Source of the DNA: Acidimicrobiales bacterium
Lineage (GTDB): Bacteria > Actinomycetota > Acidimicrobiia > Acidimicrobiales > SHLQ01
Assembly: GCA_020629635.1 (NCBI GenBank)
Contig: JAHDCX010000009.1
Span: 124,001-188,000, forward strand
Reading direction: 5' to 3'
DNA: 64,000 nt
In this document: positions 12,004 to 26,016 of the stretch, piece after piece
How positions within the stretch are numbered: the stretch's first letter is position 1
Layout: each line of letters opens with the position of its first letter
Translations under genes and position numbers: made by a program
Notes under the pieces: model-generated
Seen by the model: the letters and a program-made list of their open reading frames with translations, nothing else
Databases searched by the model: none
Told to the model about the DNA's origin: nothing

Positions 12004-12900
12004 CTACTCGCTTCGGGAGGGTGCGGTCTTTTCGAACTCGGCTTCGACGTCTGCGTACGTCAGGTCCTCGGGAACACTGGTCCGGACGACACCGCGGTTT
12101 CGGCGCTCATCGCCACGAGACGCCTTTGCCCACTGGTTGAACCGGATGGCGATCAGACCCCAGAGGAAGAAGCCACCGATGACCTTCATGATGAACCCTG
12201 CCGCCTGCTGATCGTCGACGGCGGAGATGCCCCACAGACGTACTGGCGTGTCATAGGCCGGGTACACGACGTTGTCCGCAAAGGTGAGCCAACCGGCGGG
12301 GATCGTCGGGATGATCGACATCAGGAACAGGTACAGCATCTGGGCGGGAGGCGAGAGTCGGAGTTCGGGCAGCGGGCCGAGTACCGGTACCCACATGAGC
12401 AACGCCGAGGCAAACATCACGAGGTGGATGCCGTAGTGGAACGGACCCGAATCATGGGAGAGCTGGACGATGCCATTCCAGTGCGTGAGTGCCGCGAGGG
12501 CGTTGAAGATGATCCCGGCGACCAGCGGTTGGGCAAGCTTGCCGACCCACGTCGTCGTCTGGTCGCCACTTCCGAGAATGAGGCGAGCGAGCCACTCGGG
12601 CGTCGCCTGGAGAAAGAAGATCGGGATGAAGAACGTGATCAGCAGATGCTGGAACATGTGCACCGAGTACAGGTACTCCTCGGCGATGTCGTGCATGGGC
12701 CAATCGGCCGCAACGGCGAGCATCACCACACCCAGTGCGAACATGCGCTTCTGTTTTGTGGTGACGACGGCGGATCCGTCGGTGACGACCTTCGGACCGA
12801 TCACCCGAGTGGCGTAGAACCCGAGGCCCACGATCCCCGCGATGAGCACCCACACCTCCGGGTGCGGCTGGTATGCCCACGGGTCGATCTGTGCGAGCAT
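12004..12900 (-). CDS. ctaG: Cytochrome c oxidase assembly factor CtaG
   Basis: 298 residues, with about seven transmembrane helices. Caa3-type CtaG proteins are needed for assembly of the copper centres of aa3/caa3 oxidases. Diagnostic segments are DWPMHDIAEEYLYSVHMFQH and LITFFIPIFFLQATPEWLA, plus HWNGIVQLSHDSGPFHYG, with conserved His/Met residues able to bind copper. The C-terminal ~40 residues are a charged cytoplasmic tail. It starts 2 bases after ctaF, consistent with co-transcription with the oxidase subunits. Confidence 0.9.
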   Translation of the reverse strand: MLAQIDPWAYQPHPEVWVLIAGIVGLGFYATRVIGPKVVTDGSAVVTTKQKRMFALGVVMLAVAADWPMHDIAEEYLYSVHMFQHLLITFFIPIFFLQATPEWLARLILGSGDQTTTWVGKLAQPLVAGIIFNALAALTHWNGIVQLSHDSGPFHYGIHLVMFASALLMWVPVLGPLPELRLSPPAQMLYLFLMSIIPTIPAGWLTFADNVVYPAYDTPVRLWGISAVDDQQAAGFIMKVIGGFFLWGLIAIRFNQWAKASRGDERRNRGVVRTSVPEDLTYADVEAEFEKTAPSRSE

Positions 12901-12902
12901 CG

Positions 12903-13274
12903 CTACTCGATGTCAGGGAGTCCGGGGTCTTCGAAGCCGTCGTTCCAGAAGTTGAACTCGAACGCCGACAACATGATGAAGTACACCACGATCGCCAGGA
13001 TCAGCCCGGCGACGAACAGCTGAGAAAGCACGTTCGAGTCGAACTTGAGGTGCATGAACCACGAGCCGACGATCCAGAACTTGACCACCATGAGCGCGAT
13101 CAGCCCGAGCTTCACGAGATTTCGGGGCATGTCATCTTCGAAGATGAACATGAGGATCTCGACCGCGGTGAGGACCGCGAGAATGATCGCGATGCCAACG
13201 TAGGTGCGATCGCTCGGGTGATCGTGGTGATCATCGTGAGTGTCGTGGTCGAGGTGGGTATCGGTAGCGGCCAT
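12903..13274 (-). CDS. ctaF: Cytochrome c oxidase subunit IV (prokaryotic type)
   Basis: 123 residues, with three transmembrane helices at ~26-42, ~56-75 and ~85-105, the usual form of caa3 subunit IV (HLKFDSNVLSQLFVAGL). It accompanies subunits I-III in the oxidase. The N-terminus carries a His/Asp-rich tail (THLDHDTHDDHHDHPSD), longer than in ordinary family members. Similar tails occur on other proteins of this operon. It lies 9 bases downstream of ctaE. Confidence 0.88.
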   Translation of the reverse strand: MAATDTHLDHDTHDDHHDHPSDRTYVGIAIILAVLTAVEILMFIFEDDMPRNLVKLGLIALMVVKFWIVGSWFMHLKFDSNVLSQLFVAGLILAIVVYFIMLSAFEFNFWNDGFEDPGLPDIE

Positions 13275-13283
13275 CAGGATCTC

Positions 13284-13934
13284 CTAGCCGATCGGAATGA
13301 GGTAGATCACCGTGAAGATGATGACCCACACGATGTCGACGAAGTGCCAGTACAGGCCGACGAGCTCGACCGTTTCGCCCTTCTCCTTGCCGAGGCCGGA
13401 CTTGCGGGTCCCGAAGACCGTGCCGAGCAGGAGCAGGATGCCGACGCTCACGTGCACACCGTGGAACCCGGTGAGCGTGAAGAAGGCGGACGTCCAGGTG
13501 TTGGTGCCGAAGCCCAGGCCCTCTTCACGGAAGACCGTGAACTCGTACACCTGACCACCGATGAACACCATGCCGAGGAAGGCGGTGGTGAGCAGCCAGA
13601 TGCGGCCGTTGCGCTGGTCGTCCCGGTTGACCGCCGAGAGGGCGAGCACCATCGTCAGCGAGCTCATCAGCAGGATGAACGAGCTGAGTGACGTGAACGG
13701 GATGTCGAACACGTCCGCCGGCTCTTCCCACACCGTGTTGTCGCTGATGTTCGTGCGGTAGAGCAGGAACGTCGAGATCAGTGCGCCGAAGAGCAGGCAG
13801 TCCGACGACAAGAACAGCCACATGGCCAGCTTGTTGTTGGAGATGCCGGTGTTGGTCTCGTGATGTCCGTGGTCGTCGTGGGCGGCCACATCGTGACCGG
13901 CGACGTCATCGGGGGTGAGGACGGCGTCGCTCAT
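13284..13934 (-). CDS. ctaE: Cytochrome c oxidase subunit III
   Basis: 216 residues, with five predicted helices, the actinobacterial short form. The C-terminus has the subunit III signature HFVDIVWVIIFTVIYL, and FTLTGFHGVHVSVG is the conserved helix. Subunit III stabilises subunit I during proton pumping. The N-terminal ~30 residues are again His/Asp-rich (AGHDVAAHDDHGHHETNTG). The ATG overlaps the ctaD stop (ATGA). Confidence 0.93.
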   Translation of the reverse strand: MSDAVLTPDDVAGHDVAAHDDHGHHETNTGISNNKLAMWLFLSSDCLLFGALISTFLLYRTNISDNTVWEEPADVFDIPFTSLSSFILLMSSLTMVLALSAVNRDDQRNGRIWLLTTAFLGMVFIGGQVYEFTVFREEGLGFGTNTWTSAFFTLTGFHGVHVSVGILLLLGTVFGTRKSGLGKEKGETVELVGLYWHFVDIVWVIIFTVIYLIPIG

Positions 13935-15976
13935 CAGTTCTCGTCTCCTGCGTCGGCACTGGCTGCCACCAGTTCCTTGGCGTCGTCATCGTCGTCGCCG
14001 GTCTCGAGCGCCTCGGGATCGTCGTCGTCGTGATGATCGTCGTGGTGATCGTGGGCGGCGTTCGGGTCGTCGGGATGTTCGAAGATCCAGCCGACCATGC
14101 CCCAGATCAAGAGCGCCGCGCCCGGAATGCACAGCCACAGGCTGAAGATCAGTCCGTAGGCGATGATCGGCAGGCCGGCGGCCAGCACGATCGGGTAGTA
14201 CGAGGGCGACGGAAGGTGAACGTTCGTGTTGGAGCCGTCCTGGGCGACCTCTTCGGCCGTGGCGATCCGGACCACGTTGTGGTTCTCGTCGTAGCCGTAC
14301 TTGCGATGCCAGAACTCGTCCGGGCCCTCGACGACGATGTCCTCGTCGAAGTTGTGCTCCGGGGTGGGCGATGCGGTCATCCACTCGAGGCTGCGGGCGT
14401 CCCACGGATCGGGACCCGGGTTGGGCATACCGGCCTTCTTCCACTGCGATCGGCTGTAGAAGATGTTGTAGAAGAAGATCGCAATACCGGCGGCGATGAT
14501 GAACGAGCCGATCGAGGCAACCAGGTTCCAGAACTCGAAGCCGAAGTCCTCGTCGTAGGTGTCGATGCGGCGGCTCATGCCCTGCAACCCGAGGATGTGC
14601 ATCGGGCCGAACGTCACGTTGAAGCCGACGATCTGCAGCCAGAAGTTCCACTTGCCGATGCGCTCGTTGAGCATGTAGCCGAACATCTTCGGCCACCAGA
14701 AGTAGAAGCCCGAGAAGATGCCGAGGAGGGCGCCACCGAAGATCACGTAGTGGAAGTGCGCCACGATGTAGTAGGTGTCGGTCTGTTGGGTGTCTGCGGG
14801 GGCGATCGAGTGCGTCACACCGGAGAGCCCGCCGATGGTGAACATCGACACCACACCGACGGCGAAGAGCATCGCGGTGGTGAAGCGGAGGCGGCCGCCC
14901 CAGATCGTGGCGAGCCAGTTGAGGATCTTCACGCCGGTGGGCACGGCGATGAACATCGTCGACAGCGAGAACGCCGCGACGGAGATCGGACCGATGCCGG
15001 ACACGAACATGTGGTGGGCCCAGACGCCCCAGCCCATGAAGCCGATGGCGACGCCCGAAATCACCATGAACTTGTAGCCGAAGATCGGCTTGCGGCTGAA
15101 GGTCGGAATGACCTCGGAGATGATGCCGAAGCTCGGGAGGATGAGGATGTACACCTCGGGGTGACCGAAGATCCAGAAGAGGTGCTGCCAGAGCAACGGA
15201 TCGGCGCCCGCTTCGGTGTTGAAGAACACCGAGCCGAACAGGCGGTCGAAGGTCAGCTGGAAGAGTGCGATCGAGATGACCGGCACGGCGAACAGCAGCA
15301 GGAACTGGACGACGAGGTTCATCCAGGTGAAGATCGGCATGCGCATGAGGGTCATGCCCTTGGGGCGCATGTTCATGACCGTGGTGATCAGGTTGATCGC
15401 CGAAACCAGCGATGCGATACCGGTGATCTGCAGGCCGAGGGCATAGAAGTCGATGCCGTTGCTCGGCGAGAAGGTGACGCTCGAGTTGGGGGCGTAGTTG
15501 AACCAGCCCCCGTCGGCGCCGCCACCGAACAGCCAGGCGGTGTTGAGGAAGATGCCGCCGAAGAGGAAGATCCACAGCGACAGTGCGTTCATTCGAGGGA
15601 ACGCGACGTCTCGGGCGCCGATCTGCAGCGGCAGGAGGTAGTTCGCAAACGCCGCAGCGAGGGGCATGATCACGAGGAAGATCATCGTGACGCCGTGCAT
15701 CGTGAAGACCTGGTTGTAGACCTCGGGCGAAAGCAGCGTCCCGTTGGGTGTGGCCAGTTGGATGCGGATGAGCAGGGCTTCTGCGCCGCCGATCACGAAG
15801 AAGAACATCGCGGCGACGCCGTACATGATGCCGATCTTCTTGTGGTCGACGGTGAACAGCCAGTCCTTCCAGCTGCCGTCGGCCTGTGGACGGGTCAGAT
15901 CGCCCAAGGGCCGCTCGACGCGGGCAACCGCGTCTTCACCGGCCTCGAGTGCGAGTGGTTCTTCAATGATTGCCAC
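13934..15976 (-). CDS. ctaD: Cytochrome c oxidase subunit I (aa3 type, A1 family)
   Basis: 680 residues: the catalytic subunit reducing O2 to water while pumping protons. All ligands are present. His94 and His409 (FTMHGVTM; YYIVAHFHY) bind heme a, His407 binds heme a3, and His272, His321 and His322 (FGHPEVYIL; WAHHMF) bind CuB. Tyr276 is the cross-linked Tyr, Glu274 marks the A1 D-channel and Lys350 the K-channel. About 12 helices are followed by a C-terminal extension (~560-680) with two further helices and a His/Asp-rich end (HDHHDDHHDDDDPEAL). The GTG start overlaps the ctaC TAG by one base. Confidence 0.97.
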   Translation of the reverse strand: MAIIEEPLALEAGEDAVARVERPLGDLTRPQADGSWKDWLFTVDHKKIGIMYGVAAMFFFVIGGAEALLIRIQLATPNGTLLSPEVYNQVFTMHGVTMIFLVIMPLAAAFANYLLPLQIGARDVAFPRMNALSLWIFLFGGIFLNTAWLFGGGADGGWFNYAPNSSVTFSPSNGIDFYALGLQITGIASLVSAINLITTVMNMRPKGMTLMRMPIFTWMNLVVQFLLLFAVPVISIALFQLTFDRLFGSVFFNTEAGADPLLWQHLFWIFGHPEVYILILPSFGIISEVIPTFSRKPIFGYKFMVISGVAIGFMGWGVWAHHMFVSGIGPISVAAFSLSTMFIAVPTGVKILNWLATIWGGRLRFTTAMLFAVGVVSMFTIGGLSGVTHSIAPADTQQTDTYYIVAHFHYVIFGGALLGIFSGFYFWWPKMFGYMLNERIGKWNFWLQIVGFNVTFGPMHILGLQGMSRRIDTYDEDFGFEFWNLVASIGSFIIAAGIAIFFYNIFYSRSQWKKAGMPNPGPDPWDARSLEWMTASPTPEHNFDEDIVVEGPDEFWHRKYGYDENHNVVRIATAEEVAQDGSNTNVHLPSPSYYPIVLAAGLPIIAYGLIFSLWLCIPGAALLIWGMVGWIFEHPDDPNAAHDHHDDHHDDDDPEALETGDDDDDAKELVAASADAGDEN

Positions 15977-17283
15977 TACTCAACTCCCGTCTCTTCGATG
16001 ATGAATTCGGCCGGTTTTTCGCCTGCCCCCTTGAGGAGTCCGACGAGGTCGTCGATCTCCTCGGTGGTCAGGTTGAGGTTCGGCATTCCTCGCATGCGCG
16101 GATCGTCGTCGTTGGCCGGCTGGGCGTAGTTGGCCTTGATGTCGGCGGGGTTCATCAACCACTCGCGCAGATCGGTCTCGTTGAAGTCACCGGTATCCGG
16201 GTCGTAGACGTTGCGAATGCCGCCAGCGAAGGTCGTGCGGGTGGCGAAGTGCGTCAGGTTCGGTGCCGCTCCGGCAACGAGCTGCTCGGCGACCCGCTCT
16301 TGCGACCAGACGTCGTCGGCGATGTTCTCCATCAGGTGGCACGAGGCGCACTTTCCTCGGAAGGTGTTGATCGCCCGCTGGGTGGAGTTCTCGGCGGCGG
16401 GGGTGTCGCCAGCGACGAGGGCTTCGAGGTACGCCTGGTCGTCGGCTTCGAGCGGATAGCCCTCCATCTGGGCGTTGACCCACGCCTGGAAGTCGGCGGG
16501 TTCGAGCGCCACGACCTGCATCCGCATGCGGCTGTGCGAGAGCCCGCAGAACTCGGTGCACTGGCCGAAGAAGACGCCGGGCTCGTCGGCCTGGATCTTC
16601 CATGGTGCGCTCTGGCGCCCGGGAACCGCATCGCGCTTGCCGTTGAGCGAGGGGATCCAGTGGGAGTGGATGACGTCGCGGCTGGTGATCTCGAGTTCGA
16701 TTTCCTGGCCCACCGGGATGACCATCTGCGTGGCGGTCACGATGTCGGCATTCGGGAGCGTTTCGACCCGCTCCTGATCGACGTCGACATCGCCGAAGTG
16801 GTACTGGTACTCCCACCACCACTGTTGGCCAACGACGACGACCTGCGGCTCCCATTCGACGGCCGATCCGGCGACGTCGAGGGTGACGAGGTTGGTCTCT
16901 TCGCTGTTCAGTTCCATGTGCAGGATGATCGTGAAGCCGCCGACGATGAGGAGAATGAGGGCCGGCACAGTGTTGAACAACATCTCGAGGAGAGAGTTCT
17001 CGTCTTCTTGTTCTGGCCACTCGTCGTCGTCGGTGTAGTCGTCGCCCCTGATACGGAAACGACGCCACGCTTCGAACGAGATCGCCATGACGAACGCGAA
17101 CACGGCGTAGGTGACCCACAGCAGGATCCGCATGAAGCTCTCGATGTCGCGGGCCTCCGGGCCAGCGAGATCGGAGCGCGTGTCGAGCTCAGCGTCGCCT
17201 GCGCACGCGGCGAGCAGCAGCGTCGCAAGGACCACGAGCGCCACCCGGGTGTACCGGCGGGCAGCGGACGAGTTGAGGGTCAT
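15976..17283 (-). CDS. ctaC: Cytochrome c oxidase subunit II fused to cytochrome c (lipoprotein)
   Basis: 435 residues from the ATG at 17283, which has AAGGA six bases upstream. The signal peptide ends in a lipobox (LLLAAC, Cys27), then two membrane helices (~55-75 and ~105-130). The CuA domain carries ligands in VIHSHWIPSLNG and GQCTEFCGLSHSRMRM (Cys, Glu, Cys, His, Met). A C-terminal cytochrome c domain has CASCH for covalent heme c. CuA takes electrons from the fused cytochrome c and passes them to subunit I: a caa3-like arrangement. Acidic runs between the two helices (DDYTDDDEWPEQEDENS) are unusual. Confidence 0.95.
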   Translation of the reverse strand: MTLNSSAARRYTRVALVVLATLLLAACAGDAELDTRSDLAGPEARDIESFMRILLWVTYAVFAFVMAISFEAWRRFRIRGDDYTDDDEWPEQEDENSLLEMLFNTVPALILLIVGGFTIILHMELNSEETNLVTLDVAGSAVEWEPQVVVVGQQWWWEYQYHFGDVDVDQERVETLPNADIVTATQMVIPVGQEIELEITSRDVIHSHWIPSLNGKRDAVPGRQSAPWKIQADEPGVFFGQCTEFCGLSHSRMRMQVVALEPADFQAWVNAQMEGYPLEADDQAYLEALVAGDTPAAENSTQRAINTFRGKCASCHLMENIADDVWSQERVAEQLVAGAAPNLTHFATRTTFAGGIRNVYDPDTGDFNETDLREWLMNPADIKANYAQPANDDDPRMRGMPNLNLTTEEIDDLVGLLKGAGEKPAEFIIEETGVE

Positions 17284-17384
17284 ACCTGTTCCTTCGGCGG
17301 TCGTGGCAGGAAAAGCAGCACCTTGTGAAAGTTTTCCCGAGCGCCCGGTCGACGGCAAGTCGCGCGGGCCAGAGTTTGCGGCGG

Positions 17385-18194
17385 TCACGAGGAGGCGTCC
17401 TCGCTCTCGTCGGAGTGGTCGTCAGAGTGATCTTCGCTGTGATCGTCGTGATGATGTTCGATCTCGCGGGTTCCCTCGACCGCTCCCCAGATGCCACCGG
17501 CGAGAATGCCGACGGCGACGAGGGCGACGAGCCCGGTCATGGCGTTCTTCGAGAGGTTGGGGCGCTGCGTGATCAGGATCGCGACGCCGAGGATGACGAG
17601 CGCAACGATCGAGCCGACGACGACGGCGCCTTCCTTGGAGGCCGCGAGGAAGATCCGTGACACGGCGAGCACGATGACTCCGCCGCCGAGGAGTCCGAGG
17701 AGCGGAACCTCGAAGGGGCCCATGAGCTGGTCGCGCAGTGCTTCGTTGGCCGAGGCGTCGGCGGAGGCGCGGTCGGCCCAGGCGGTCATCGTCCATTCGA
17801 ACGCGACGATGGCGAGCACGACGAGTCCCACACCGAACAGGAGTGGGCTGATCGCGAGGCCGGTTGCGGCAGCGGCGACACCGGCGCCGGCGATGATCGG
17901 CCAGATCGATTCGCCGACTGGTCGCTGAGCGGCTGGTGCGTCGCTTCGCCCCATCGCTGCGGCGACCGCTTCGGCGTCGGCGTCACGGAACCAGGTGAGC
18001 AGGCCTCCGACGATGACGGAGGTGAAGGCAACGCCGAGAAGCACCGTGTACGACACCTGGTCACCGATGCCGCCCTTGTAGCCCGCGCTGAGCGGGCCGA
18101 CGACGTCGCCGCCACTCGTGTAGCCGCCGATGGCAGCTGCGGCGAGCGCCGCCATGGCGATGCCGAGATAGAGCTTGAGTCCTGTTGGGATCAT
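17385..18194 (-). CDS. Unknown membrane protein with His/Asp tail in the oxidase operon
   Basis: 269 residues. About six to eight hydrophobic helices (from LYLGIAMAALAAAAIGGYTS to TGLVALVAVGILAGGIWGA) with an Ala/Asp-rich cytoplasmic-type loop. No family I recognise. The last ~30 residues are a His/Asp/Ser run (EIEHHHDDHSEDHSDDHSDE) capable of binding copper or zinc. It sits between the subunit III-like gene (8 bases upstream) and ctaC (101 bases downstream), so it is expressed with both oxidase-like complexes. It may be an accessory or metal-handling subunit; that is inference from position and tail alone. Confidence 0.75.
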   Translation of the reverse strand: MIPTGLKLYLGIAMAALAAAAIGGYTSGGDVVGPLSAGYKGGIGDQVSYTVLLGVAFTSVIVGGLLTWFRDADAEAVAAAMGRSDAPAAQRPVGESIWPIIAGAGVAAAATGLAISPLLFGVGLVVLAIVAFEWTMTAWADRASADASANEALRDQLMGPFEVPLLGLLGGGVIVLAVSRIFLAASKEGAVVVGSIVALVILGVAILITQRPNLSKNAMTGLVALVAVGILAGGIWGAVEGTREIEHHHDDHSEDHSDDHSDESEDASS

Positions 18195-18201
18195 GCGAGG
18201 C

Positions 18202-18813
18202 TCACTTCGTGATCGTGATCAGGTACCAGACGGGCAGGTACACGAGGACGGTGGCGAACCAGTAGATCGCCGCCGCTTCGATGCCGTCGGCATTGGTCGA
18301 GTTGAACTGGCCCGTGACCGCTCGGACGAGCATCAGGGCGACGAACGCAATCGCGCTTCCGAGGAAGGCGATGTAGGCGCCATAGATGGTGAAGAGCAGC
18401 AGGGCCGGAAGGCTGCGATCGACTGGTAGCGCGAAGTCGCTGATGGCGAACGCCATCTGATTGATCACCGCGGCGCCCATGAGGATGGTCGCGCCGAGCG
18501 CCATGTAGCCGTGGCCGCGGTCGTCGTTGCGAAACGCCTGCACGGCCCATGCCATGGTGAAGGCACCGATCCACGTGGTGAACATCATCATCGTGCCGGG
18601 TGCGATCTGCACGGCACCCTCGGGGAACCAGAGGCCACCGCCGAGCCGGTTCTCGACGAGGAACTCGTTGTTCTGCCGGATCGAGATGTAGACGGCGAAG
18701 AGGCCGACGAAGACCATGATCGCGGCGACCGAGGCGAAGGCCGTGCCGACGAGCAGCGTCCGGCTCCGGGTGGCTTCGGCCTGCGGGAGCACGTTGAGGG
18801 TTGACTCCGCCAT
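18202..18813 (-). CDS. Cytochrome c oxidase subunit III-like protein of the degenerate complex
   Basis: 203 residues from the ATG at 18813, which overlaps the stop of the upstream subunit I-like gene (ATGA). Five hydrophobic helices match the subunit III plan: FVGLFAVYISIRQNNEF, MMMFTTWIGAFTMAWAVQAF, YMALGATILMGAAV, then two C-terminal helices. The terminal helix reads AAIYWFATVLVYLPVWYLIT where ctaE has HFVDIVWVIIF, so the conserved His and Asp are missing. Known subunit III has no metal. The pairing with a ligand-less subunit I suggests a second complex built on the oxidase scaffold. Confidence 0.75.
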   Translation of the reverse strand: MAESTLNVLPQAEATRSRTLLVGTAFASVAAIMVFVGLFAVYISIRQNNEFLVENRLGGGLWFPEGAVQIAPGTMMMFTTWIGAFTMAWAVQAFRNDDRGHGYMALGATILMGAAVINQMAFAISDFALPVDRSLPALLLFTIYGAYIAFLGSAIAFVALMLVRAVTGQFNSTNADGIEAAAIYWFATVLVYLPVWYLITITK

Positions 18814-20465
18814 CAGTTGACCTCCTCGAACTCGTCGAGCAGTGGGGCTTCGGAAGTGATCACCGGCAGCGGTTCGACGAAGTTGCCGACCGGCGGGGGC
18901 GACGGCGCCGCCCACTCGAGGGTGTGGCCCTCCCAGGGGTCATCGGGAAGGGTCTCTTTGCTCGTCACGGCGGCCATGACCGACCCGATGAGCGCCAGCG
19001 CAGCGAGTACGAGCAGCACCGCACCGATCGCGGCGATGACGTTGAAGGTCTCGACGCCCGATTCGACGGCGTCGGAGACGCTGATGTCGGGCTGGCCCAT
19101 CAGGCCGGAGATCAGGTCGGCGACGCCACCGATTGCGCCAGCGCCGAGGCCCGTGACGATCGCCAGCATGGCGAGGGGCTCACGGGCGTAGCCACCGAAG
19201 ATCTTCGGGGCCCACCACGCGAGCGCACCGGCGCCCGACACGACGACTGCGGCGAGGACCAGGGAGAGCTGTGCGGTCGTGGTCGACAACAACACGTTGT
19301 CCTCGTGGAGGCCGTCCCAGAGCGGAATGACCCGAATCTCGCCGGCGACGGCGGCGAGCAGCAGCAGGATCGCGCCCATCAGCCCACCGAGCAGTGCCGC
19401 GGAGATCTTTGGGGTCGCGCCTCGGCGGATGGTGTCGAGTACACCGCCGATGACGCCGAGAATCGGGAGGACAACGACGAGACCGAAGGCGATGTAGAGG
19501 AATTCGTCGTAGATCCGGTTGCCGTCCGTGAAGACGGGGTCTGCGCCTCGGGAGAACGAGTGTTGTGCCCATGCGCCGAAGCTGAGGGCGCCGAAGAGGC
19601 CGATCATCGAGAAGATGACGGAGCGGCTGACCTGGCGGGTCTTGGCCGCAACGGGGCCGATTTCGGCGAGCACACCCAGGACCGGGATGGCGTAGGCGTA
19701 GACCTGGGGCTGTTCCCACGCCCAGGAGACATCGCCCCAGATCCGGGAACGTTCGCCGAAGAAGATTGGGTCGCGGCCCTGGAGATCGGCGTAGACGTAG
19801 ATCAGGTTGGCGACGAGGACGGGCAGCGACAGGAGCCAGACCGAGCAGGCGACGAGCATCGACCAGGCGAACGCCGGGACGTTCAGCAGCGACATCCCCG
19901 ATGGACGCAACGCGATCACCGTCGTGGCGACGCAGATCGATGCGGCGAGGATGGCGCCGATCATCAGCACGAGCGAGGTCACCGTGAGCAGCGTGGCTTC
20001 GCTCGACGTGCCGTCTGCCGGGCCGAGGCCGCCGTCGGCCAGGAACGAGGCGAGGTGCACACAGCCGCCAATGAACCAGGCCCAGAACGCTGCCGCGGAC
20101 AAGCGGGGGAACGCGATGCCCCCGGCGCCCACCTGGAGTGGCACGACCGCGGTGGCGATGCCGAGGAAGAGCGGGATGGCAACCAGGAAGACCCCGCCGG
20201 TACGGAACAGCACCCAGCTCTGGAAGTAGGAGGCGACCGACCCGAACAGGTCGATGCCGCTGAGCGAGGCTCGTTCGAATCCGTTGAGCACGCCCAGCAC
20301 GGAGACGACGAGCAGGAACAACAGGGATGCGCCGATCCAGAGACGGCCGACCATCTTGTGGTCGTTGGACGCGACGAGGAGGTAGAGGCCATCGCCTGTT
20401 GCGTCGTCCACGGTCACGTCGAGCTCGGACTCGTGGGATTCGGCATGCGCTTCGGTGGCGGTCAT
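18813..20465 (-). CDS. Degenerate heme-copper oxidase subunit I homologue lacking metal ligands
   Basis: 550 residues. The ATG at 20465 is preferred over the GTG at 20501 because GAGGGTG lies 9 bases upstream. It is collinear with ctaD in this window: DHK (35-37), PLQVGAGGIAFPR (109-121), the helix VI region with Tyr256, WAQHSF (299-304), WWAPKIFGG, and a shared C-terminal DPWEG..LEW. The metal ligands are replaced: CtaD His94 becomes Phe87, His272 Gln252, His321 Gln301, His407 Thr397 and His409 Gln399; only His302 (CtaD His322) remains. Glu274 becomes Gln254. It therefore should not bind heme a, heme a3 or CuB in the normal way. The reading frame is intact and it is the first gene of the oxidase operon, so it looks retained rather than decayed. 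Function unknown. Confidence 0.85.
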   Translation of the reverse strand: MTATEAHAESHESELDVTVDDATGDGLYLLVASNDHKMVGRLWIGASLLFLLVVSVLGVLNGFERASLSGIDLFGSVASYFQSWVLFRTGGVFLVAIPLFLGIATAVVPLQVGAGGIAFPRLSAAAFWAWFIGGCVHLASFLADGGLGPADGTSSEATLLTVTSLVLMIGAILAASICVATTVIALRPSGMSLLNVPAFAWSMLVACSVWLLSLPVLVANLIYVYADLQGRDPIFFGERSRIWGDVSWAWEQPQVYAYAIPVLGVLAEIGPVAAKTRQVSRSVIFSMIGLFGALSFGAWAQHSFSRGADPVFTDGNRIYDEFLYIAFGLVVVLPILGVIGGVLDTIRRGATPKISAALLGGLMGAILLLLAAVAGEIRVIPLWDGLHEDNVLLSTTTAQLSLVLAAVVVSGAGALAWWAPKIFGGYAREPLAMLAIVTGLGAGAIGGVADLISGLMGQPDISVSDAVESGVETFNVIAAIGAVLLVLAALALIGSVMAAVTSKETLPDDPWEGHTLEWAAPSPPPVGNFVEPLPVITSEAPLLDEFEEVN

Positions 20466-20653
20466 GTGTGTGAATTCACCCTCGGCTGGCAATTGGGTCA
20501 CCGGTCAAACCGGACCACCCGATGGTATTCGGCGCGGCACGGCTTGAGGCGCATCAACGGGGTTTCCGCGCGCACCTGCCCGGACAGTATCGGGCGCTGG
20601 ATTCGTGTCCCAAGGCGAAGGCCCCCGACGCGCGTCACACGTCACACCCGCAT
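20466..20653 (-). promoter_or_regulatory. Leader and presumed promoter region of the oxidase operon
   Basis: A non-coding stretch of about 190 bases between the start of the degenerate subunit I gene and the ctaB hairpin. As the first gene of a nine-gene leftward run begins here, the operon promoter is expected in it. I see no convincing -35/-10 pair. GAGGGTG at 20475-20481 is the likely ribosome binding site. Confidence 0.35.
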
Positions 20654-20708: not shown

Positions 20709-21647
20709 TCAGGTGATGGCGACGTCCACGGCCATGGCCACGAAGAGCACCGTCAGGTAGGTGATCGAGAAGGTGAAGAGCTTCATCGCTCGTTGTGGCG
20801 TGGGGTCACGCAACAACTGCACCGCATACAGGGTGAACAGACCGCCCGACACGATCGACGTGACCAGGTAGAACCAGCCCATCCCGGCGATCGGCGCGAA
20901 TGCGACACCAAGCGCCCAAACCGCAACCGAGTACGCAACGATCTGACGAGCGGTCGATTCGAGGCTGGCGACCGACGGCATCATCGGAACATCGGCAGCC
21001 GAGTAGTCGTCGCGGTACTTCACCGCGAGCGCCCAGAAGTGCGGGGGCGTCCACAAGAAGATGATCCCGAACAAGACGACGGGCTCCCACGCAATCGAAT
21101 TCGTGACCGCCGCCCAACCGACCAGGACCGGCATGCACCCCGCCGCGCCACCGATCACGATGTTTTGTCGAGACGTCCGCTTGAGCCAGAGCGTGTACAC
21201 GAAGATGTAGAACGCCGCGGCAGACAAGGCGAGCAACGCCGACAGCGGATTGACGAACCCGGCGAGCCAGACGCCGGCGACGACCAGCAGGGCGACCGAG
21301 AAGACCAGTGCGTTTCGGGGCTCAATCTCGCCGGTCACGAGCGGTCGACCTTCGGTCCGCTTCATGATCTTGTCGATGTCGCGGTCGACATACATGTTGA
21401 CGGCGTTGGCGCCGCCCGCGGCGAACGTTCCGCCGATCACGGTCGCGACGACGAGCCACCAGCCCGGCCAGCCACGCTCCGCGACCACCATCGTGGGCAC
21501 GGTCGTGATCAGCAGGAGCTCAATGATTCGAGGCTTGGTCAGCGCAAGGTAGGCGCCGAATGTGGAACGGGTCGTCGAGGCACCCGGCGCAACAGTCGTC
21601 ATCGCCCCCAATGGTATGGCCGGGCTCGGCACTTCTGCCAAGGTCAT
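20709..21647 (-). CDS. ctaB: Heme O synthase (protoheme IX farnesyltransferase)
   Basis: 312 residues, UbiA-family prenyltransferase with about nine helices. It adds a farnesyl group to heme b to make heme O, the precursor of heme a for CtaD. The first Asp-rich motif is NAVNMYVDRDIDKIMKRTEG and the second region is KYRDDYSAADVPMMP. LTKPRIIELLLITTVPTM is the typical first helix. The ATG at 21647 leaves only 20 bases to the divergent ctaA start; the ATG at 21602 (MTTVAPGAST) would leave more room for a promoter and still precedes the conserved core. Confidence 0.94.
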   Translation of the reverse strand: MTLAEVPSPAIPLGAMTTVAPGASTTRSTFGAYLALTKPRIIELLLITTVPTMVVAERGWPGWWLVVATVIGGTFAAGGANAVNMYVDRDIDKIMKRTEGRPLVTGEIEPRNALVFSVALLVVAGVWLAGFVNPLSALLALSAAAFYIFVYTLWLKRTSRQNIVIGGAAGCMPVLVGWAAVTNSIAWEPVVLFGIIFLWTPPHFWALAVKYRDDYSAADVPMMPSVASLESTARQIVAYSVAVWALGVAFAPIAGMGWFYLVTSIVSGGLFTLYAVQLLRDPTPQRAMKLFTFSITYLTVLFVAMAVDVAIT

Positions 21648-21667: not shown

Positions 21668-22588
21668 ATGTTTTGGGGTCGCGACGCCGCCTTCTGGACC
21701 CGCGTCACGCTCGTCTGGCTGATGGCGATCACCGTCACTGGCGCGGCCGTCCGTCTGACGGGCTCGGGGCTCGGCTGCACCGACTGGCCGACATGCAGCA
21801 TCAACGAAGAACTCGACGCTCCCGGATTCCACGCGACGATCGAGTTCGGCAACCGCATCATCTCGGGCCTGGCGATCATTCCGGTCATTGCGGCCTGGGT
21901 CGCGGCACGCCGGCTGAACCGCGTCGATCTCCGTCCGTGGTTCGTCGCCATGGTCATCGGATTCCTCGGCCAAGTTCTCCTCGGCATGCTCGTCACCCGC
22001 ACCCACCTCGATCCCCGAGTTGTGCTCGGGCACTTCTTGTTGTCGATCGTGCTGATCTTCATCGGCGTGGCCCTCGACCACGGCGCCCGTACCACTGGGG
22101 TCAAGTCTCAACAAGCAACAGGTTCGGCACCTGGGTCCGACCCATGGCTCCGGACTGCTTCGACGGTGGCCGTCGCGCTCGCCAGCGCGGTCATCGTCCT
22201 CGGCACGCTCGTCACGGGATCGGGGCCGCACACGGGCAGCGACGAGTCCGGCCAGGCGGTACCACGGCTGGGCCTCGACATTCGCGAAATCACTCGCGTG
22301 CATTCGGTGACCGTCTGGATTCTCGGCGCCGTGCTTCTCGCAATCATCGTGAAGGCCCGACGGGAACATTCACCGCACGATCGTGGCGTCGTCCGGGCGA
22401 TCGCCCTCGGAGCAGCACAGGGCGGGATCGGATACCTCCAGTACTTCACCGGTGTCCCGGTGTTGCTGGTCGGGGTGCACATCGCGGGCTCGGTACTGTT
22501 CTGGACTGCGCTCACCTGGTGGTTCTTCGACGTTCGCCGCGACGTCGGACAGCCAGCCCGAGCGGTTCGGGAGGAGGTACCCGCATGA
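21668..22588 (+). CDS. ctaA: Heme A synthase
   Basis: 306 residues with about eight membrane helices in two four-helix halves. It oxidises heme O to heme A. Conserved features: [19 protein letters not shown] (with the Cys pair region), [12 protein letters not shown] (Glu/His-containing helix), [25 protein letters not shown] and [12 protein letters not shown] supplying heme-binding His residues. A 29-base copy of the R1 repeat (22096-22124) is read in frame as [10 protein letters not shown] in the loop joining the two halves. The gene remains open, so the insertion seems tolerated. It overlaps clpS (ATGA). Confidence 0.92.
22096..22124 (+). repeat. Dispersed repeat R1, copy b, inside ctaA
   Basis: 29 bases beginning TGGGGTCAAGTCTCAACAAG, four changes from the copy at 23401-23429. 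It lies in the ctaA region coding for the inter-domain loop and is translated in a different frame from copy a. The open frame shows it was accepted as coding sequence. Confidence 0.8.
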
Positions 22589-23447: not shown

Positions 23448-25112
23448 TCAGGCGGGGGCTTCGCAGTTGCGGACGGTTTCGAGACCGGCGCATCGATCGA
23501 AATCCGCGCCGGCGTCGCCACTGTCTCTTCCGCCTCCCCCGGCGAGCAGGTCGATGCCCGCACCGCCGAGCAGCACGTCATGTCCTCCGGATCCGATCAG
23601 ACGGTCGCGTCCGTTGCCGCCCGTGAGGCGATCGTTGTCGCCGTCGCCAACGAGGCGGTCATAGCCCGCGGCTCCGTCGAGGGTGTCGTGACCCGGACCT
23701 CCCCGAAGACGGTCGTGGCCGTGGCCGCCGTAGATGACATCGTGGCCTTTGTTGCCGCCGATCCGGTCGTCGCCGCGGTGGCCGAAGATGCGGTCTGATC
23801 CACCGCCGCCCCAGATGCGGTCGTCGCCGTCGAGCCCACAGATCACGTCATCGCCGGTCCCGCCGTCGATGATGTCGGGACCGTTCGTGCCGAGGATGAC
23901 GTCGTCTCCCGGGGTGGGGGTCTGACCCTTCGAAAGGTCGACGGTCACCCGAAGGCCGTCGCAGTACGCGACCGGCGCAGGAGCGACCGACGTTGTTGTT
24001 GTCGTCGTGGTGGTGGTCGTCGGGGGCGGGCTCGGCTGGCTGAAGACTTCGATCACCGCCGCCTCGCCGGCCCCGAAGGAGTCGGCGATGTTCGCTCGGT
24101 CGCACGGCGTGGTGTCGGCGTAGCCGCGACACCAATGCCAGCGGCCAGCGTCGCCGTAGAGGTAGCCCGAGACGCCGGCGTTGCGCGAGGCGATGGCCTC
24201 GGCCCGAACTTCGGTGACGCCAGGGTTGCGCCAGCGTTCGTCGAGCCAATCGAAGTTGCTGTTGAAGTACTTGGCCTCACCCTGGAAGACGGGCACGCCG
24301 TAGGCCTCGACGGCGAGCCGCATGTGTTCCTCGGCCTCCTCGATGGTTCGGTCGTGGCCGATCTCGGGTGCGGCGACGTCGATCCACGGTTCGCCGGCGT
24401 AGAAGAGCGAGCCGTTCCAGAACGGCGGCGCATGAAACGCGATGTCGAGCGGTGACCCCGCGTCTCGGACCGCACGGGCCATGATGCGCCACACCTCCTT
24501 GTTGGCCTCGGTGTTGTTGGAGCCGCCGTCTCCGCCGAACACCCACATGCTGACCGCGGGATGATCGCCAAAGGCTTCGACCATCTGGAGGCCGTAGGCG
24601 TACGCGTTGTCGACGGTGACCGTGCCGCGAACCTGGTCGGCGATCTCGTTGCCCTCGCCAGAACGCCCGCCGGGAAGATAGAGGTTGTGCCAGGCCACGA
24701 CGAGGCCGACCTTCATGCCATTGCGGTGCGCCGCGTCGAGGATGCGGTTGGCATGGGCGATGTAGCCGTCGGTCAGGACGACCTCGCCATCGATGAGCGC
24801 TCCCATCGGGCCGCCGTCGCGGTAGTCCTGCACGTAGGTGACCGGGATGTGATGGATGACGCCGGTCCATGCCCCGGTGAAGCCGTGGTCACGAAGCGCG
24901 GCGAAGTACTCGTCGGCTTCTTCCTCGCTCGCCGACGAGAGCATCTGCCAGGCGGTGTCGTAGACCGGGATCGTGGTGTCGGCCGTGGGTGCGATCCAGG
25001 CCGACGAACCGTTGCCATTCGGTTGTGCGTCGGCTTCGCCCGTGACTCCGGCGATCGCGCCCATGGTGAGCACGAGGCCAACAGACATCAACCCAAAGTG
25101 GCGAATCCCCAT
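23448..25112 (-). CDS. Secreted glycosidase-like protein with C-terminal RTX repeats
   Basis: 554 residues from the ATG at 25112 (MGIRHFGLMSVGLVLTMGAI), which opens a signal peptide ending near GEADA. Residues ~40-380 resemble TIM-barrel glycoside hydrolases of the DUF4038/apiosidase-like group: VSMWVFGGDGGSNNTEAN, IAFHAPPFWNG, and VFQGEAKYFNSNFDW with a candidate catalytic Glu. A Pro/Thr linker (PPPTTTTTTTTTT) leads to about 12 RTX-type nonapeptides (GGTGDDVICG, GGGGSDRIFG and others) that bind calcium and often accompany type I or actinobacterial export. The substrate is unknown; the family assignment is moderate, the RTX and signal peptide firm. Confidence 0.78.
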   Translation of the reverse strand: MGIRHFGLMSVGLVLTMGAIAGVTGEADAQPNGNGSSAWIAPTADTTIPVYDTAWQMLSSASEEEADEYFAALRDHGFTGAWTGVIHHIPVTYVQDYRDGGPMGALIDGEVVLTDGYIAHANRILDAAHRNGMKVGLVVAWHNLYLPGGRSGEGNEIADQVRGTVTVDNAYAYGLQMVEAFGDHPAVSMWVFGGDGGSNNTEANKEVWRIMARAVRDAGSPLDIAFHAPPFWNGSLFYAGEPWIDVAAPEIGHDRTIEEAEEHMRLAVEAYGVPVFQGEAKYFNSNFDWLDERWRNPGVTEVRAEAIASRNAGVSGYLYGDAGRWHWCRGYADTTPCDRANIADSFGAGEAAVIEVFSQPSPPPTTTTTTTTTTSVAPAPVAYCDGLRVTVDLSKGQTPTPGDDVILGTNGPDIIDGGTGDDVICGLDGDDRIWGGGGSDRIFGHRGDDRIGGNKGHDVIYGGHGHDRLRGGPGHDTLDGAAGYDRLVGDGDNDRLTGGNGRDRLIGSGGHDVLLGGAGIDLLAGGGGRDSGDAGADFDRCAGLETVRNCEAPA

Positions 25113-25182
25113 GGCGTGAGGGTAACAGTGCAGCCGAATGCGCTCGAAATGACTCCACCCGCCGCAGAGAACGGCGGTGTCG

Positions 25183-26016
25183 TCAGGCCGCTGGCCACCA
25201 GAATCCACCGGCGGTCCCCGGACCGGTGTACACGGCGATCGAGGGACCCATGCGGTAGCGCCGGACCGAGGCCACGACGGGCGATGCCTGCAGTCGAGCT
25301 TCGAGCGCCTCGGTGAACTCGATCGTGTCGGGAGCAGCGTGGGCGACCGCGACATGCCGTGGACGGTCACCGGCGGTCATTTGGGCCGTCATTGCGTCGA
25401 CGAGGGCGTCGATCGATCGGCCGGTCCCGACGAGTTCGTAACCACCGCCGTAGCCGGCCAGGACCGGCACGTCCTCGGCTCCCGACGGCAACTCGGCGGC
25501 GCGCATGCGACCGCCCTTCAGGACGTAGCGAAGATCCTGCAAGATGAAGGTCGTGCCGATCGTCGGAATGAGGGCTTCGGCCACGTCGACGGCGGCTTCG
25601 ACCCCACCTCCGGCGGCGACCGCGTCGGCGACCGCCATCGCCACGACGCCGCTGCCGTACGACGTCATCCTGGTGTCGATGAGGGTGACCGGAACGGGCG
25701 CATCGTCGATCGCCACCCGCGCCGCGTTGAGCGTCCCCGACAGGGCCTCGCCGAGATGCACCGAGATCACGTGGTCGGCGCCTGCTTCCGCGAGTTGGCT
25801 CCACAGGTCGAGGAACTGACCGGGCGAGGGTTGGCTCGTGGAGACCTCGACTCCCGAGGCCAGCCGGCCGTAGAACTCATCGACGTCGAGCTCGACCCCT
25901 TCGAGATGCGCTCGACCATCGAGCACCACCGTGATCGGAAGGACATGAATTCGGTGCCGGCCGCACTCGTCGGTCGAGAGCTGCGCGGAGGAGTCGGTGA
26001 CGACAGCGATGTTCAT
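25183..26016 (-). CDS. DegV family fatty-acid-binding protein
   Basis: 277 residues. N-terminal MNIAVVTDSSAQLS and the diagnostic VSTSQPSPGQFLDLW are DegV hallmarks, as is DTRMTSYGSGVVAMAV in the second half. DegV/FakB proteins hold a fatty acid for phosphorylation by FakA in phospholipid synthesis or uptake. The start overlaps the stop of the plsY-like gene (ATGA), and PlsY uses acyl-phosphate, the product of the Fak system, which supports a shared role. No fakA is present in the window. Confidence 0.92.
   Translation of the reverse strand: MNIAVVTDSSAQLSTDECGRHRIHVLPITVVLDGRAHLEGVELDVDEFYGRLASGVEVSTSQPSPGQFLDLWSQLAEAGADHVISVHLGEALSGTLNAARVAIDDAPVPVTLIDTRMTSYGSGVVAMAVADAVAAGGGVEAAVDVAEALIPTIGTTFILQDLRYVLKGGRMRAAELPSGAEDVPVLAGYGGGYELVGTGRSIDALVDAMTAQMTAGDRPRHVAVAHAAPDTIEFTEALEARLQASPVVASVRRYRMGPSIAVYTGPGTAGGFWWPAA

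Follow-up and report, generated by a model that had tools for sequence, protein, structure and literature searches.

Why should a full-length homologue of the oxygen-reducing subunit of a terminal oxidase, stripped of nearly all its metal ligands, be kept beside the genes for the working enzyme? The question is raised by a stretch of 64,000 nucleotides (the window) from an Acidimicrobiales bacterium (assembly GCA_020629635.1, contig JAHDCX010000009.1, positions 124,001 to 188,000), where three genes sit between ctaB and ctaC-ctaD of a caa3 oxidase operon. They are referred to here as I* (a COX1-fold protein), III* (a COX3-like protein) and X (a CtaF-cupredoxin fusion), and together as the module, I*-III*-X (Table 1). 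A preliminary description of the locus, made from the letters of the DNA, proposed that I* is a retained non-catalytic scaffold tied to the working oxidase, and this is well supported by the lack of CuB in 69 homologues, the linkage to ctaC-ctaD and the signs of purifying selection. Loss of the O2-reducing metal site in every case examined makes I* probably a structural or assembly partner and not an enzyme.

A COX1 fold without its metal sites

How securely is I* a member of this family? PF00115 (COX1) matches its residues 39-484 with an expectation value (E) of 3e-36, and its BLASTP alignment with CtaD of the same operon spans 540 columns with 26% identity (E 4e-39). An AlphaFold2 model, built on an alignment of 50 homologues, has a predicted local distance difference test score (pLDDT) of 88.6 and a predicted template modelling score (pTM) of 0.92, and the closest PDB structures to it in a Foldseek search are subunit I of the bcc-aa3 oxidases of C. 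glutamicum and M. smegmatis, with template modelling (TM) scores of about 0.82. The coordinates, strand and open frame first given for I*, and its end-to-end similarity to CtaD, are thus borne out; an in-frame GTG at 20501, upstream of the start adopted here, offers an alternative of 562 residues. Against the CtaD equivalog TIGR02891, whose cut-off is 670.75 bits, I* falls below with 188 and the operon CtaD is narrowly above with 687.8. These two are the only COX1 homologues in the window genome, and only the operon CtaD bears ligands.

Ligand positions were read from a 90-sequence alignment with CtaD numbering as the reference. All six ligands are present in the operon CtaD and five of the six are gone from I*, H302 (CtaD H322) alone being kept: at CtaD H94, H272, H321, H407 and H409 there are F87, Q252, Q301, Q399 and S401. 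The D-channel glutamate, E274, has become Q254, while Y276 is kept as Y256; the K-channel Lys350 is V338, with no Lys among the residues listed at that position in 47 scored I*; and the heme-propionate pair Arg469/470 is gone altogether, being D460/I461. In helix X the register, with Q399 at the heme a3 ligand and S401 at the heme a ligand, is fixed by homologues that have AHxH (AHIH), GQQH or AQVH there. The count of five replaced histidines had been correctly made at the outset, as had the assignments of 94 to Phe87, 272 to Gln252, 321 to Gln301, Glu274 to Gln254 and the kept tyrosine to Tyr256. The exception was helix X, for which 407 had been equated with Thr397 and 409 with Gln399, two residues off. 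Could misalignment lie behind the apparent loss? Several alignments, the AlphaFold2 model and homologues that retain some of the histidines rule it out. That I* was repurposed as a proton device, as suggested earlier, is unlikely, both the D-channel glutamate and the K-channel lysine being lost.

The order of cofactor loss

The CuB site is kept in none of the 69 I* homologues, which come from at least 27 family-level groups. In 59 of 67 scored rows none of the three CuB histidines is left, and the same holds for the three rows (L184, L185 and L191) whose ligand states were assigned by hand. On a tree of the 69 I* and 12 CtaD, rooted at the midpoint only, I* and CtaD part in one change, and an earlier tree agrees; with all I* standing apart from all CtaD, a recent duplication of the adjacent ctaD is ruled out.

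What had been overlooked is that basal lineages keep a bis-His low-spin heme site and, as a rule, a type-1 copper motif in X, and that the window lineage has lost both. Fourteen I* combine the histidine pair of the low-spin heme (H94, H409) with the copper motif in X (L080, L084, L085, L174, L177, L178, L180, L182, L183, L187-L190 and L192); 13 of them branch on the CtaD side of the tree, and L174 is basal in the half that contains the window. Of the remaining rows, five have just the histidine pair and two just the copper motif, while 48, including the window, are without both. The picture that the sequences suggest is of CuB having been first to go and the other sites later. Co-loss of the heme and copper sites is not significant by independent pairs, of which only 5-6 are informative.

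Partners of I* and their spread

The pairing of I* with a subunit III-like protein that lacks the conserved His/Asp holds, those residues of the last helix being absent from III*. The match of III* to COX3 (PF00510), over residues 19-197 of 204, scores 21.9 bits, below the cut-off of 23.8. The third gene of the module, X, had escaped attention. Profiles of its N-terminal half match short genes of CtaF size and the extension at the C-terminus of CtaD; those of its C-terminal half match the membrane part of the anchored cupredoxin proteins encoded after ctaG in other Actinomycetota. PF12270 (Cyt_c_ox_IV) finds no match in the window X and matches 6 of 44 X homologues, at best with E 2e-4; Cupredoxin_1 matches three of the 44. 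A Foldseek fold search with X puts CtaF chains on top but weakly (E 0.2-0.3), and has nothing below E 0.001. Because the two halves of X match CtaF-like and cupredoxin-anchor proteins, I*-III*-X looks, from its sequences, like CtaD-CtaE-CtaF with a cupredoxin anchor, the CtaF part being a weak match. The working oxidase, with the PF12270 extension of its CtaD, therefore has a CtaF-like part of its own. In place of a cupredoxin domain the window X ends in a His/Asp/Glu-rich tail, and the type-1 copper motif, present in basal X such as those of L080, L084 and L085, is absent from it; as for a His-rich tail in the window lineage, 12 of 47 have at least four histidines in their last 45 residues.

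Nor had it been seen that the module is spread over the whole order. With X as its marker, the module is present in 264 of the 397 Acidimicrobiales genomes and in 127 of the 203 genera, and no full-length X was found outside the order in a sample of the phylum. The gene order (ctaA ctaB) I* III* X ctaC ctaD ctaE IV ctaG recurs in over 25 family-level groups, with ctaB in the same place relative to I* in nearly all relatives, and wherever the contig allows the homologues lie next to ctaC-ctaD, as had been anticipated. Exceptions are few; in L084, for instance, X and ctaC are some 4.7 kb apart, and in L079 ctaB is 3.5 kb off. A TlpA/thioredoxin-like gene (WCxPC) stands between X and ctaC in two heme-keeping lineages (L080, 9160-9750; L085, 9237-9737, both counted in the direction of the operon). 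Related caa3 operons of the class and phylum lack the module (L094-L096 and L108; L139-L158), and in the last of these sets, from other Actinomycetota, a membrane-anchored cupredoxin gene closes the operon, with two cupredoxin domains in L151 and L152. A complete and named genome, that of Aquihabitans sp. G128, has the operon, which makes direct tests feasible; its ctaD (L167, 5859-7854) reads as two overlapping frames, and this may be a frameshift or a sequencing error.

Selection on the module

Is I* simply decaying? In three close pairs its ratio of nonsynonymous to synonymous substitution rates (dN/dS) is 0.10, 0.16 and 0.26, with 0.03-0.11 for CtaD, and in two more distant pairs it is 0.57 and 0.60, where that of CtaD is raised too (0.17 and 0.29). 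The selection check proposed with the preliminary description thus gave purifying selection in close pairs, with frames open across the order, and a local pseudogene is ruled out by these open frames, by dN/dS and by the fixed order of the genes. Relative to CtaD, conservation of I* is 0.71 in cytoplasmic loops and 0.50, the lowest, in periplasmic ones, on the side of subunit II and the heme propionates; that the cytoplasmic side is the best kept fits loss of the CuA/heme-facing side with the other face still constrained. For I*, III* and X, distances are correlated more closely than CtaD accounts for (partial r 0.25-0.36).

What may the module do?

The reading to which we incline, with a confidence that is evenly balanced, makes I*-III*-X a companion of the caa3 oxidase that carries no cofactors, much as CydB accompanies CydA. 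The module would descend from an actinobacterial-type oxidase core (CtaD, CtaE, CtaF and an anchored cupredoxin) after loss of oxygen reduction, with I*, III* and X combining into what we infer to be one membrane complex, and its ancestral form may have been an electron relay from type-1 copper to low-spin heme. Lying in tandem with the caa3 genes, the module genes are probably expressed so that module and oxidase are made together, and in the window lineage a cofactor-free module would take its place beside or near the catalytic core, which it would stabilise, dock or regulate; its present role is presumably structural. A bolder form, in which the caa3 oxidase across the order is hetero-oligomeric, with one cofactor-free homologous core per catalytic core and a basal form that lacks CuB and moves electrons, is tentative and more doubtful than probable. 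If true, this would add a new architecture to the heme-copper oxidase superfamily.

Several points weigh against such a partnership. Contact between module and oxidase is read from operon linkage, selection and rate correlation, and I* correlates with ctaC and ctaE (0.33 and 0.32) about as well as with III*; not being specific, the correlation was dropped as proof of a complex. The sides of I* were assigned from standard COX1 topology placed on a model. Operons for caa3 oxidase outside the order function without the module and one third of the order is without it, so that the oxidase as such does not need it. I* also evolves fast, its mean distance being 1.4 against 0.46 for CtaD, and this would suit a loosely constrained assembly factor as well.

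An assembly role is in fact the main rival, though we consider it unlikely: the module would be a folding mould, or a platform for copper and heme delivery, serving the caa3 oxidase during biogenesis only. With this agree not just the fast evolution but also the location between the ctaA/ctaB assembly genes and the structural genes, the cupredoxin domain in basal X, the His-rich tail in X of the window lineage, and the TlpA-like thioredoxin gene of L080 and L085. However, a twelve-helix COX1 fold with homologues of subunits III and IV would be costly for a chaperone, CtaG is already present, and in the parts consulted of a review of oxidase assembly (PMC9145763) no factor of such make-up is named. 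Might the module instead be a branch for electrons, in which a cupredoxin or other donor passes them to a low-spin heme in I*, which in turn gives electrons to the caa3 oxidase or takes them from it, with the window copy as a late decayed form? The 14 I*, nearly all basal, with H94 and H409 and a type-1 copper motif in X invite that view, but it is improbable: neither site is in the window protein or in most of the family, the propionate arginines are lost even in L080, L084 and L085, and the joint loss of heme and copper fails to reach significance once kinship is allowed for.

A role as supercomplex adaptor, in which the module would link the caa3 oxidase with complex III or some other partner, is decidedly improbable. 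In sequence and in fold I* comes closest to subunit I of actinobacterial III2-IV2 supercomplexes, and its conserved motifs (DHK, PLQVGA..FPR, LR.xGM and TLEW..SPPP) are on the cytoplasmic side; yet that resemblance is one of homology only, and complex III of the window genome is of the split cytochrome b type with a Rieske protein and a separate cytochrome c. As for a functionless duplicate in decay, retained by chance, its rapid divergence and the recurrent loss of cofactor sites are what would be expected, but frames that stay open throughout the order, a dN/dS far below 1 for close pairs and the fixed gene order make it scarcely credible.

Comparison with known systems

With CtaD/COX1 (PF00115, TIGR02891) I* shares fold, length, twelve helices, the DHK N-terminus, the LEW.xSPPP.NF C-terminus and the operon; it differs in being without the CuB, heme a3 and heme a ligands, the propionate arginines, the D-channel glutamate and the K-channel lysine. 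The actinobacterial bcc-aa3 core (PDB 7q21, 6hwh) is its best match in sequence and fold, III* corresponding to CtaE and the N-terminal half of X to CtaF, but the module has no subunit II of its own and no cofactor sites, and is inside a caa3 operon whose CtaC is fused to cytochrome c. The anchored cupredoxin encoded after ctaG (L139-L158) is homologous to the C-terminal half of X, and basal X keep its type-1 copper motif; there it is a separate gene beside a complete oxidase, whereas in X it is fused to a CtaF-like half and in the window the copper domain is lost. CydB of cytochrome bd oxidase is a heme-free homologue of the catalytic subunit CydA, with which it is encoded (PMC6853902). The likeness to I* is of role only, as the families are unrelated and CydB has been shown in its complex, whereas for I* such a place is proposed.

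In the heme-copper oxidase superfamily we know of no pseudo-enzyme paralogue tied to a respiratory complex, which is what I* would be. The nearest departures from the conserved CuB ligands are the cbb3 variants of Nitrospina and Sinorhizobium, where one residue is replaced and the oxidase is treated as functional, the single replacement in the CuB centre of Nitrospina being termed unprecedented (PMC3578206); in I* it is the whole site. A classifier of heme-copper oxidases threw out sequences without the six histidines (PMC3084760), and such surveys would therefore exclude the I* family. The statement made at the start that no characterised example was known agrees with a search of open-access papers on subunit I without ligands, on oxidases of Acidimicrobiia and on paralogues of CtaD, in which no description of the family was found. 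Why does it matter? A series of forms that grades from those bearing heme and copper to those fully free of cofactors, all beside a working oxidase, would allow the change from respiratory enzyme to structural subunit to be tested, and in metagenomes I* genes could be counted as additional terminal oxidases.

The operon and its neighbours

Table 1. Genes of the caa3 operon and module in the window
Gene	Product and features	Positions	Strand	Evidence
I*	COX1-fold protein, 550 aa, with five of six metal ligands lost	18813..20465	-	Pfam, BLASTP, AlphaFold2 model, alignment
III*	COX3-like, 203 aa from its ATG; GGAGG just upstream	18202..18813	-	
X	seven helices, 269 aa; N-half CtaF/subunit IV-like, C-half like cupredoxin-anchor membrane part	17385..18194	-	
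ctaC	subunit II, CuA domain and C-terminal cytochrome c motif (CASCH)	15976..17388	-	
ctaD	subunit I (catalytic), extended at its C-terminus by PF12270 (subunit IV-like)	13934..15976	-	
ctaE	subunit III	13284..13934	-	
IV	prokaryotic subunit IV (PF03626)	12903..13274	-	
ctaG	caa3_CtaG assembly factor	12004..12900	-	
ctaB	heme O synthase	20709..21647	-	
ctaA	heme A synthase, divergent; start approximate	21668..22588	+	

I* had been called the first gene of the operon. This is so for the tight block and not necessarily for the transcript, since I* is preceded by ctaB on the same strand, at a distance of 243 bp. The junction of the I* stop and the III* start reads TGATG, with one shared base, and not ATGA as first given; ctaC and X overlap by GTGA. 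His/Asp-rich tails are found on four operon proteins (12903-18194), at the C-termini of X and CtaD and the N-termini of CtaE and IV, each with 5-6 histidines within 45 residues, and possibly they bind metal. The complex III genes of the window genome are at L168 (G000:C4:160000-177000), the split cytochrome b occupying two open reading frames. At 23448-25370 on the minus strand is a putative secreted protein with many GGxGxD-type repeats at its C-terminus, spotted by eye.
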